Source of the DNA: an uncultured Mucilaginibacter sp.
Lineage (GTDB): Bacteria > Bacteroidota > Bacteroidia > Sphingobacteriales > Sphingobacteriaceae
Direction of reading: 5' to 3'
Length of the DNA: 5,041 nucleotides
NCBI GenBank assembly: GCA_946479225.1
Contig: CAMLFI010000240.1
Coordinates: 1-5,041 of the forward strand
Under the pieces are notes generated by a model that ran no database searches, was not told where the DNA came from, and saw only the letters and a program-made list of their open reading frames with translations. A program made the translations under genes and the position numbers. Below are positions 1,520 to 5,041 of the stretch, piece by piece. Every line of letters starts with the position of its first letter. Within the stretch, counting starts at the first letter, position 1.

Positions 1520-3368
<1,849 letters not shown>

Positions 3369-4355
3369 TTATATGGATAAAACATCAACCATTTGCAACA
3401 GGTCATCCTCCAGTTTAAACTGATGATCTGTTAAGGCTTCAACAAGGGAAGTAGTTTTTATAACGTTAGCCTCAAGTCCAACCATTTCCTGCGTGTGTCC
3501 CGCTATCAAGGCGTTAACAGCGGCGTAGCCCAACCTACTACCTAAAACACGGTCAAAACTGCTTGGCGAACCTCCCCTTTGCAGGTGGCCCAAAACAGTA
3601 ACTTTAATATCGTAATTGGTGATCTGCTGTTTTACTTTTTTAGCCAGGTCATAAATATTACCGCTTTTATCGCCTTCGGCAACAATTACTATACTTGATG
3701 ATTTTTTGTTAACCTCGCCATTTTTAAGCAATTCTATCAACTCATCAATTGCGGTTGATTTTTCGGGCAGTAAAATACCTTCAGCGCCGCAGGCAATACC
3801 TGCCCGCAAAGCAATAGCGCCCGAGTCGCGGCCCATTACCTCGATAAAAAACAAACGATCATGCGAGTCTGCAGTATCACGAATTTTATCAATAGCTTCA
3901 ATAACTGTGTTAGTGGCCGTGTCAAACCCAAGGGTATAAGTTGAGCCATACAGGTCGTTATCAATTGTACCCGGTATACCCATCACTTTTATGTCCGGAT
4001 ATTCCTGCGAAAATTTAAGCGCGCCGGTAAAAGTTCCGTCTCCACCTATTACAACTAACGCATCAATACCGTGTTCCTTCAAATTATTATAAGCCGTTTG
4101 CCTGCCCTCCGGAGTACGAAATTCCATGCAACGTGCGGTCTTTAAAATGGTGCCCCCCAGGTTTAGAATATTACTTACCGAACGGGTTTCCATATCGTAC
4201 ATATCATTCTCTATCAACCCTTTATAGCCCTGCCTTATGCCTACAACACTTATACCGTTGTAAATAGCTGTACGCACTACAGCCCTGATGCACGGGTTCA
4301 TTCCGGGGGCATCGCCACCGGAAGTAAGTACACCAAGTTTTAAAATTTTTTGCAT
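3369..4355 (-). CDS. pfkA: ATP-dependent 6-phosphofructokinase
   Basis: This phosphorylates fructose 6-phosphate to fructose 1,6-bisphosphate, the committing step of glycolysis, as a cytoplasmic tetramer. From the chosen start it has 328 residues (E. coli PfkA has 320). Motifs seen: GVLTSGGDAPGMN (8-20, ATP site); GGDGTF (104-109), where the glycine after Asp marks ATP rather than PPi use; PGTIDND (128-134) with catalytic Asp132, again the ATP-type PG rather than PK; MGRDSG (174-179) in the sugar-phosphate site; and LGHLQRGGSPSSFDR near the C-terminal third. An in-frame ATG at 4382 would add nine residues, but the 4355 start is preferred. It has a GAGG Shine-Dalgarno 8 bases upstream, it matches the usual family N terminus, and the upstream ATG abuts the inferred -7 element. 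It is the first gene of the operon pfkA - ASKHA protein - gap. Confidence 0.97.
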   Translation of the reverse strand: MQKILKLGVLTSGGDAPGMNPCIRAVVRTAIYNGISVVGIRQGYKGLIENDMYDMETRSVSNILNLGGTILKTARCMEFRTPEGRQTAYNNLKEHGIDALVVIGGDGTFTGALKFSQEYPDIKVMGIPGTIDNDLYGSTYTLGFDTATNTVIEAIDKIRDTADSHDRLFFIEVMGRDSGAIALRAGIACGAEGILLPEKSTAIDELIELLKNGEVNKKSSSIVIVAEGDKSGNIYDLAKKVKQQITNYDIKVTVLGHLQRGGSPSSFDRVLGSRLGYAAVNALIAGHTQEMVGLEANVIKTTSLVEALTDHQFKLEDDLLQMVDVLSI

Positions 4356-4362
4356 CGTTTTT

Positions 4363-4367
4363 ACCTC
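4363..4367 (-). promoter_or_regulatory. Shine-Dalgarno sequence setting the pfkA start
   Basis: The minus strand reads GAGGT ending 7 bases before the ATG at 4355-4353. Such sites are uncommon in Bacteroidota and are absent from the other genes here. It favours the shorter pfkA start over the upstream in-frame ATG at 4382. Confidence 0.6.
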
Positions 4368-4381
4368 AGTAATAATTTGCA

Positions 4382-4413
4382 CGAATATAAGGTGTGAAAA
4401 TTACACCATTAAA
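4382..4413 (-). promoter_or_regulatory. Promoter of the pfkA-ASKHA-gap operon
   Basis: On the minus strand, TTTA (4413-4410) is followed by a 20-base spacer and TATATTCG (4389-4382). This fits the Bacteroidota TTTG-N19-21-TAnnTTTG pattern with one mismatch in each box. Transcription would start near 4375, giving a leader of about 20 bases. The whole spacer is occupied by the palindrome at 4391-4407, which suggests repressor control. Confidence 0.55.
4391..4407. promoter_or_regulatory. 17-bp palindromic operator candidate between divergent units
   Basis: The sequence GGTGTGAAAATTACACC has perfect 5-bp arms, GGTGT and ACACC, separated by 7 bases. Inside the arms A4397 also pairs with T4401. 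The arm centres are 12 bp apart. It lies wholly in the spacer of the pfkA promoter and upstream of the divergent Nudix-regulator gene. Regulators of the NrtR/AraR type commonly bind palindromes next to their own gene, so that neighbour is the first candidate to bind here; this is inference. Confidence 0.6.
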
Positions 4414-4429
4414 TTTATTTTTATTTATT

Positions 4430-4461
4430 TTTGGTACCGCTAATTGTTGTGCGTACTTTAA
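4430..4461 (+). promoter_or_regulatory. Promoter candidate for the Nudix-type regulator
   Basis: TTTG at 4430-4433, a 20-base spacer and TACTTTAA at 4454-4461 fit the Bacteroidota consensus, except that the final G is A. The start would be near 4467, about 15 bases before the TTG at 4482. A competing -7 element, TATTTTTG at 4426-4433, is a perfect TAnnTTTG but lacks a TTTG at the right distance; its -33 region would fall on the palindrome. Confidence 0.4.
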
Positions 4462-4481
4462 AAACTTTAAATATTACCAGT

Positions 4482-5041
4482 TTGGAAGATAACACTCATG
4501 CCTTTAATTCTATATTTTCTATTGACTGCCTTGTATTTGGATACGATGCCGGCGAACTGAAAATATTACTGATTGAAAGAAACGAAGAGCCCTTTAAGGA
4601 TTGGTACGCCCTGCCGGGTTACATTGTAAAACAAGAAGAAAGCCTTGATGACGCGGCCGAACGTATCTTATATGAGCTTACCGGCTTGCGCGATCTGCCG
4701 ATGAAGCAGTTTCATACCTTTGGCGAAGTTGACAGACACCCTAAGGGCCGGGTAATTACCGTTGGTTATTATGCGCTGATACGCATAACCGGACAAAAGG
4801 AATTGCGGTCAATTAGTTCAATGGCGCGGAAAGCGTTTTGGCACCCGGTGAAAACTCTGCCTAAACTGGCTTTCGACCACAGCGATATTTTTCATACAGG
4901 CTTTGCCAAAATACGCCGTAGGTTAACCCATCAGCCAATAGCGTTTGATCTGTTGCCCGAAAAATTTACCTTAACGCAATTACAAGGACTTTACGAAGCC
5001 ATACTGGATAAAAAGCTGGATAAACGCAACTTCCGCAAAAA
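4482..5041 (+). CDS. NrtR/AraR-type transcriptional regulator: degenerate Nudix domain plus winged helix (3'-truncated)
   Basis: An open frame of 186 codons from TTG at 4482 runs off the window; the family is usually about 220-240 residues. Residues 11-110 form a Nudix fold beginning IFSIDCLVFGYDAGELKILL. The Nudix box runs from G46 to L69. Its catalytic part reads RILYELTGL (61-69) where hydrolases have REUxEExGU, so two of three metal-binding glutamates are lost (I62, L66) and hydrolysis is unlikely. GRVITVGYYALI (89-100) is typical of the regulator branch. At the C terminus, FTLTQLQGLYEAIL (162-175) and DKRNFRKK (180-187) match the winged-helix part of NrtR-like regulators; the last codon is cut. 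No in-frame ATG exists at the N terminus. TTG at 4482 fits the family length and the promoter, while GTG at 4449 is the alternative and would add 11 residues. It is divergent from pfkA and may control it; the ligand is unknown. Confidence 0.88.
   Translation, partial: MEDNTHAFNSIFSIDCLVFGYDAGELKILLIERNEEPFKDWYALPGYIVKQEESLDDAAERILYELTGLRDLPMKQFHTFGEVDRHPKGRVITVGYYALIRITGQKELRSISSMARKAFWHPVKTLPKLAFDHSDIFHTGFAKIRRRLTHQPIAFDLLPEKFTLTQLQGLYEAILDKKLDKRNFRK

Follow-up and report, generated by a model that had tools for sequence, protein, structure and literature searches.

The semipalindromic sequence GGTGTGAAAATTACACC (positions 4391–4407), located upstream of pfkA in a stretch of 5,041 nucleotides from an uncultured Mucilaginibacter sp. 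(the window), is likely to be the operator of a divergently encoded regulator of the NrtR/AraR type, and one copy of an operator that is common to several glycolytic units (the pfkA-kinase-gapA operon, pyk and eno), where the regulator would act as a repressor until a sugar-type ligand releases it. The sequence itself, its conservation, the sites shared between promoters, the homology of the protein and the identity of its recognition residues point to this reading, in which binding, repression and ligand release are the predicted steps.

The pfkA operon and its divergent regulator

Three genes of the minus strand (pfkA, kinase and gapA) are packed as an operon. pfkA (3369–4355) encodes an ATP-dependent 6-phosphofructokinase (PF00365, 9.2e-112; TIGR02482, 414.7 bits with a cut-off of 371.35). 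The second gene (2520–3368), which abuts pfkA with zero gap, codes for a BadF/MurK-type sugar (amino-sugar) kinase that matches PF01869 below its cut-off (23.7 against 31.5 bits) and whose closest solved structures are 1zbs, 8oqw, 8ow9 (putative MurNAc kinase) and 1zxo, followed by GlcNAc kinases; 1ZBS and 1ZXO are given in the paper on MurK (PMC10465942) as biochemically uncharacterised, possible MurNAc kinases. The third gene, gapA (1520–2515), codes for a type I glyceraldehyde-3-phosphate dehydrogenase (TIGR01534, 454.4 bits, cut-off 367.2). Among the best 80 of 217 loci, 73 have this gene order. Between engB/ysxC and gapA lie two ordinary genes, one for a cold-shock protein (PF00313, 641–832) and one YtxH-like (PF12732, 1059–1433).

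The regulator gene (4482–5041, plus strand), which is cut at its 3' end by the end of the window, codes for a Nudix-like domain of the NrtR/AraR type followed by a winged helix, and its likely start is the TTG at 4482 (61 relatives have an aligned codon at this place, and it is TTG in 59). The centre of the palindrome, at 4399, is thus placed 83 nt upstream of the start codon of the regulator, and not about 68 bases as had been estimated in the first-pass annotation of this DNA.

Read on the pfkA strand (minus) the operator is GGTGTAATTTTCACACC, with a GTGT-N7-ACAC core. It had been described as the only such palindrome noticed in the window, which holds for exact GGTGT-N7-ACACC (a single match with zero mismatches, the mean over 200 Markov simulations being 0.005 per window). 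Perfect 5+5 palindromes of any sequence with a 7-nt spacer occur seven times in the window, with 6.7 expected from the Markov simulations, and once in the intergenic region (4356–4481), with 0.17 expected. Taken alone, the palindrome of the window is near chance level and weak as evidence; its weight comes from its conservation.

Conservation of the operator at pfkA

Relatives of the regulator were searched in named genomes, and the best 80 of 217 loci (L001–L080; Mucilaginibacter, Pedobacter, Daejeonella and relatives) were analyzed. pfkA is divergent beside the regulator in 75 of these 80 loci, and GTGT-N7-ACAC is present 21–40 nt from the pfkA start in all 75, so that the situation which would have argued against an operator, a conserved gene pair that lacks the palindrome, was looked for and did not appear among these loci. 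When the window is included, the GTGT and ACAC arms are constant in 76/76 loci, and the spacer and the outer bases vary; this alignment was picked by the core itself, yet no locus with a divergent pfkA failed that pick. Among the other loci, two end at a contig edge without the site (L033 and L035) and one ends at a contig edge with it (L049), gapA adjoins the regulator in L048 with a one-mismatch site between them, and the regulator of L066 (genome G010) has no adjacent pfkA; a pfkA located elsewhere in this genome (L099) carries CGTGTATTATTTACACT 21 nt upstream. Twenty loci have an enlarged gap between pfkA and the regulator (270–907 nt) and all of them hold one exact site, 22–35 nt from pfkA. 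The site stays with pfkA, and not with the regulator, when the gap grows.

A relative of the regulator is present in 121 of 121 sampled genomes of the order. Twenty of its 22 most diverged members (all except G084 and G104), with regulators 45–56% identical, were also analyzed: pfkA is divergent beside the regulator in 19/20, the exact site is present in 18/20, and it is located one base from the -7 box in 16. The site overlaps this box by one base in G128 and is further away in G113; G064 keeps the gene pair, but its sole site has one mismatch and is 117 nt away; the regulator of G094 has no adjacent pfkA.

GTGT and ACAC are also found in L001–L080 at spacing 9 (35 matches) and at spacing 6 (16 matches). 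Most of the former fall on pfkA operators, where an overlapping GTGTGT lets one site be read in a second register. The spacing-6 matches constitute a separate recurrent palindrome, GGTGTTAAAATACACC and its variants (GTGT-N6-ACAC), most of whose 16 matches are located 1.0–1.1 kb beyond the regulator match. A Crp-type site was also considered for the pfkA promoter and discarded on inspection: TGTGA is present in the window, but it is missing in relatives such as AGTGTAAAAAATACACG.

The pfkA promoter

A -7 element, TATATTCG (4382–4389, minus strand), is located one base downstream of the operator, and a TAT[AC]TT[CTA]G box is kept at this same distance in 76/76 loci (the window included, the others from the best 80 of 217). 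The -7 consensus has been given as TAnnTTTG (PMC9723704, PMC7366714) and its placement as -12 to -5 (PMC9723704), by which transcription of pfkA is predicted to start at about 4377, with the operator spanning about -14 to -30. At the -33 place there is a conserved block, AAATTTAAT (4408–4416, minus strand), that does not contain TTTG, and no TTTG is conserved among the 80 distinct sequences of the promoter alignment. The first-pass annotation had the operator filling the spacer between both elements; its -7 side (4382–4389) is present and conserved, but its -33 side (TTTA at 4410–4413) is soft.

The promoter alignment consists of 55-mers (92 sequences, 80 distinct) whose rows were picked by the GTGT-N7-ACAC core, so that the arm columns are invariant by choice; the rows of the diverged order members (L282–L301) had in addition to have a -7 box at a one-base distance, leaving out G113, G128, G064 and G094. 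A nearly invariant AAATT (4412–4416) sits four bases upstream of the operator on the minus strand, with AAA in 80/80 distinct sequences and its two T in 79/80 and 78/80; it is followed by three variable bases and then by a T at -1 in 77/80. AAATT could serve as an atypical -33 element, or belong to the operator.

The regulator protein and its predicted reading of DNA

The N-terminal domain of the window protein is Nudix-like (PF00293, 40.6 bits, cut-off 21.1), with a catalytically degenerate Nudix box (RILYELTGL versus REUXEEXGU, two glutamates being lost). Its C-terminal winged helix, although the window ends before the gene does, matches PF21906 (NrtR_WHD, 58.5 bits, cut-off 27) and PF19368 (AraR_C, 25.2 bits, cut-off 23.8), and the complete ortholog L056 aligns with AraR through the wing. 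Among solved structures the best match is B. thetaiotaomicron AraR, 5bs6 (4.4e-45 for the window protein and 2.8e-57 for L056). The window protein, truncated as it is, scores 110.7 bits with the NCBIfam equivalog model of NrtR (NF050029), whose cut-off is 400.

The operator of the BtAraR co-crystal holds GTGTTACTTTTACAC (PMC4666351), and its GTGT-N7-ACAC core is the core of the window operator. AraR contacts DNA through D178, K179, R180, N181, R183 and K184 of the helix and K204 and R205 of the wing (PMC4666351). The recognition helix of the window protein is DKRNFRK, as in AraR, and its six contact residues are identical in the window protein, in 75/75 readable proteins of L001–L080 (L008, L009, L011, L015 and L066 are missing from the residue counts, as is L350) and in 20/20 of L282–L301. 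In the wing of L056, R205 is kept and K204 of AraR is replaced by F, and by Y in the Mucilaginibacter proteins that were compared. The earlier proposal of an operator at this operon is supported: the site lies in the promoter, and the adjoining divergent regulator belongs to a family whose members bind sites of just this kind.

In a tree of a chosen subset of 79 proteins (without L008, L009, L011, L015, L066 and L350) the pfkA-linked regulator forms a branch separate from AraR. The same data contain a positive control, the AraR-type locus L348, whose protein groups with AraR at 100/100 and which has AGTGTTACTTTTACACC upstream of an ara-like gene cluster (genes assigned by eye). Two other loci, L341 and L347, encode NrtR-family regulators in NAD-like clusters (by eye; a nicotinamide phosphoribosyltransferase-like gene in L341), with two GTGT-N7-ACAC sites each upstream of the regulator, and are likely NAD-type members with the same core operator. 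The core therefore belongs to the family and not to the pfkA-linked branch alone.

Further predicted glycolytic targets

A scan for copies upstream of glycolytic genes had been proposed together with the operator. A first lead came from a scan of 12 genomes with the pattern GTGTAAN5ACAC: 40 of the places found, picked for their symmetry, suggested fba and eno. Five glycolytic genes were then analyzed in 26 genomes (16 Mucilaginibacter, one Daejeonella and nine Pedobacter; the genome of the window is not among them), taking exact sites up to 300 nt upstream of the start codon. The scan recovered the same operator at pyk in 23/26 genomes (the three without an exact site include G001, which has only one family member) and at eno in 5/26, to which 12 more are added with one mismatch, GTGT to TTGT in each case and at the same place; nine of the 26 have no eno site even with one mismatch allowed, and a second eno copy of G026 also lacks it. 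pgk has an exact site in 1/26 genomes and tpi in 0/26 (one is located 308 nt upstream of tpi in G004). With one mismatch allowed, sites were found at fba in 10, at pgk in 3 and at tpi in 2 of the 26. As a spacing control, 527,611 bases of glycolytic loci gave 37 matches at spacing 7 and 1–11 at each of the other spacings from 3 to 14; 36 of the 37 fall in the counted promoter windows, the last one being the G004 tpi site.

The exact site is present at fba in 7/26 genomes (7/16 Mucilaginibacter and 0/9 Pedobacter), 77–130 nt before the start codon, and a divergent accD-like gene (by eye) shares it in L088/L093. For now fba is not taken as a firm member of the regulon, given its restriction to Mucilaginibacter and the distance of the site from the fba -7 element. 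In three Pedobacter genomes (L095 in G007, L103 in G011 and L111 in G009) GTGT-N7-ACAC is located 9–18 nt upstream of a conserved MFS-transporter-like gene (by eye), a possible further member of the regulon. In L109 (G011) a site is found 56 nt upstream of a gene whose product resembles, by eye and at its N-terminus, sugar transporters of the GlcP/FucP type.

The position of the site relative to the promoter differs between targets. Pedobacter pyk (ACACTATATTTG) has it in contact with the -7 box, and eno and Mucilaginibacter pyk have it just downstream of a -7-like box. Both placements, upstream of -7 at pfkA and Pedobacter pyk and over the predicted start elsewhere, would suit a repressor.

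Distribution outside the order

Forty loci outside the order were fetched from the 81 matches listed (one of them, L371, comes from an order member). In 12 of the 40 (L351, L352, L353, L355, L357, L359, L361, L362, L363, L364, L366 and L367) a regulator with an insertion is divergent beside pfkA, gapA and/or the kinase, and nine of these 12 have the exact site in the gap (all except L355, L361 and L364). In L356 and L360 the kinase is slightly further away and the exact site is located just before it; the kinase is present in 14/14 insertion-type loci. The pfkA, gapA and kinase neighbours are absent in L332–L350. The deciding forks of the tree between the L351-type regulators and the clade of the order have supports of 85/89 (drawn open) and 84/89.

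The pyk site was found in 10/10 diverged order members tested and in 3/18 genomes of other orders that have the insertion-type regulator. Twenty of 99 genomes with no regulator match in the first search, those listed, formed the negative group; three lack pyk, and the site is present in one of the 17 that have it (G165). A search with an L351-type regulator matched G165 (5.8e-76), G140 (5e-72) and, weakly, G155 (1.4e-12), and the pyk site is found in 0/14 pyk-bearing class members that have no regulator match in either search. G140 has an insertion-type regulator and a pyk without the site. The start codon is less sure in 7 of the 45 rows of this pyk comparison (rows with no motif found).

The sugar pocket and the ligand

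The pocket of AraR was compared in the window protein and in 95 order members. R34, R86, H131 and F129 are kept in 95/95, F36 is replaced by E in 95/95, G48 by Y, N or F (never G), and F49 is F in 29/95; the window protein has E36, Y48 and I49. G89 is replaced by Q in the 75 closer members, mostly by E in the 20 diverged ones and by K in the window. The complete L-arabinose pocket, which includes F36, G48 and F49, is thus found neither in the window protein nor in the 95 relatives, and the neighbours are pfkA, the kinase and gapA in place of arabinose genes. In NrtR the residues at positions 36 and 89 contact the phosphate region of ADP-ribose (PMC4666351). These pocket residues make both L-arabinose and ADP-ribose unlikely and a sugar likely, and the residues suggest that the ligand is probably neither of those two. 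Among the insertion-bearing regulators of L351–L367, Q replaces R34 in 7/14; their ligand may differ from that of the order clade.

Proposed model and alternative explanations

In the proposed model, a dimer of the regulator would bind GTGT-N7-ACAC through its C-terminal winged helices. At the pfkA-operon promoter, and at pyk of Pedobacter, the operator would block RNA polymerase from a position directly upstream of the -7 element, and at eno and Mucilaginibacter pyk from a position over the predicted transcription start. The glycolytic genes would remain repressed until a sugar-type ligand in the Nudix-like pocket frees the regulator, as L-arabinose frees AraR.

The first-pass annotation considered the regulator a local one, which controls itself and its neighbour. 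The divergent layout in 75/80 loci (of the best 80 of 217) is what a purely local pair would give, and the window also contains a TAnnTTTG sequence, TATTTTTG (4426–4433, plus strand), 27 nt from the operator centre, a possible -7 element of the regulator whose -33 region would overlap the operator. However, the operator also occurs at pyk and eno, which are located at other places of the genome, a regulator-side box is found at 23–30 nt from the centre in just 12/76 loci, and in the 20 loci with long gaps the site keeps beside pfkA, with the regulator hundreds of bases away. The restriction to a local pair is thus left without support and is very unlikely, a pathway regulon being more likely; self-control is possible in the window, but as a conserved feature it was rejected on the box counts and the long-gap loci. 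It is also quite unlikely that a paralogue of the arabinose, xylose or NAD type is the main binder and the neighbouring regulator a bystander. The core is indeed shared by the AraR-type L348, the NAD-type L341 and L347 (by eye) and a paralogue of G004 (L091), and many genomes have 2–8 members of the family, so that another member could bind some of the sites; against this, pfkA remains linked and divergent even where the regulator is as little as 45% identical, and G007 and G062, each with one family member (E<=1e-15), have the site at both pfkA and pyk. G001, with one family member by the same threshold, has it at pfkA and eno and not at pyk.

That the regulator works as an activator is improbable. 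A poor -33 region beside a strictly kept site resembles some activator-dependent promoters, and TTTG is absent from the pfkA promoter; the site, however, abuts or follows the -7 element, a position from which known activators rarely work. AraR, the closest characterised relative, is released from DNA by its inducer L-arabinose (PMC4666351), which also argues against activation. A hairpin or terminator in the RNA, or a palindrome arisen by chance, has in its favour that a terminator scan flags the site on both strands and that 5-7-5 palindromes are common in the window. However, both predicted starts are located downstream of the site, and its letters reappear at other promoters; the terminator or hairpin was rejected, since the arms are invariant and show no compensatory changes, and together these explanations have a negligible probability. 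The preferred reading remains that of a repressor whose operator is common to the pfkA operon, pyk and eno.

Relation to known regulators and significance

AraR (BT0354 of B. thetaiotaomicron, NrtR family) shares with the pfkA-linked regulator the Nudix-like and winged-helix domains, DKRNFRK, the GTGT-N7-ACAC core, a degenerate Nudix box and R34, R86, H131 and F129, and differs from it in its separate branch, in positions 36 (E here), 48 (Y, N or F), 89 (mostly Q or E) and 204 (F or Y), and in its targets, which are arabinose genes and not glycolytic ones. NrtR (an ADP-ribose-responsive NAD regulator; Shewanella, 3gz5/3gz6) has the same family fold and domain order, but the targets predicted here are not NAD genes and the cut protein stays far below the NrtR equivalog cut-off. 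The closest functional counterparts belong to other protein families. CggR of Bacillus subtilis (SorC family) is a repressor of central glycolytic genes that acts on one operon, which includes itself, from an operator at +32 to +77, and responds to FBP and DHAP (PMC11229326). Cra/FruR of Escherichia coli controls central-metabolism genes at many promoters, as proposed here, and responds to fructose-1-phosphate (PMC11157272). The predicted operators at several glycolytic promoters (the pfkA operon, pyk and eno) would give the regulator described here a comparable, CggR/Cra-like scope. Cra/FruR is a member of the LacI family.

Within the titles and abstract openings of the open-access literature searched, neither a transcriptional regulator of core glycolysis in Bacteroidota nor a glycolytic regulator of the NrtR/AraR family was found. 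The NrtR-family regulators given for B. thetaiotaomicron are AraR and XylR (PMC3878776), the family members named in the AraR and regulon papers control NAD, arabinose or xylose genes (PMC4666351, PMC3878776), and the main text of the AraR paper contains no word beginning with 'glycoly' (PMC4666351). The protein family and the operator type are known and, as far as searched, the pathway assignment is new.

The bacteria of this order live on sugars derived from polysaccharides. A broader proposal, which is doubtful and is offered tentatively, is that a Nudix-fold sugar sensor is the standing glycolysis switch across much of Bacteroidia, the counterpart of CggR or Cra made from a fold of enzyme type, with an unphosphorylated amino sugar as its possible signal, which would tie the supply of cell-wall or chitin sugars to glycolytic expression. 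An amino sugar is suggested because the neighbour seen most often in the fetched loci of other orders is a MurK/NagK-type amino-sugar kinase, and because order members have a conserved acidic residue, E36, at the position where NrtR holds a phosphate and AraR has phenylalanine. If the main reading is true, one protein and a simple 15-base rule would predict control at the pfkA-kinase-gapA operon, at pyk and, for many of the members, at eno, and the regulator would be a general glycolysis switch whose reach is wider than the local pair.
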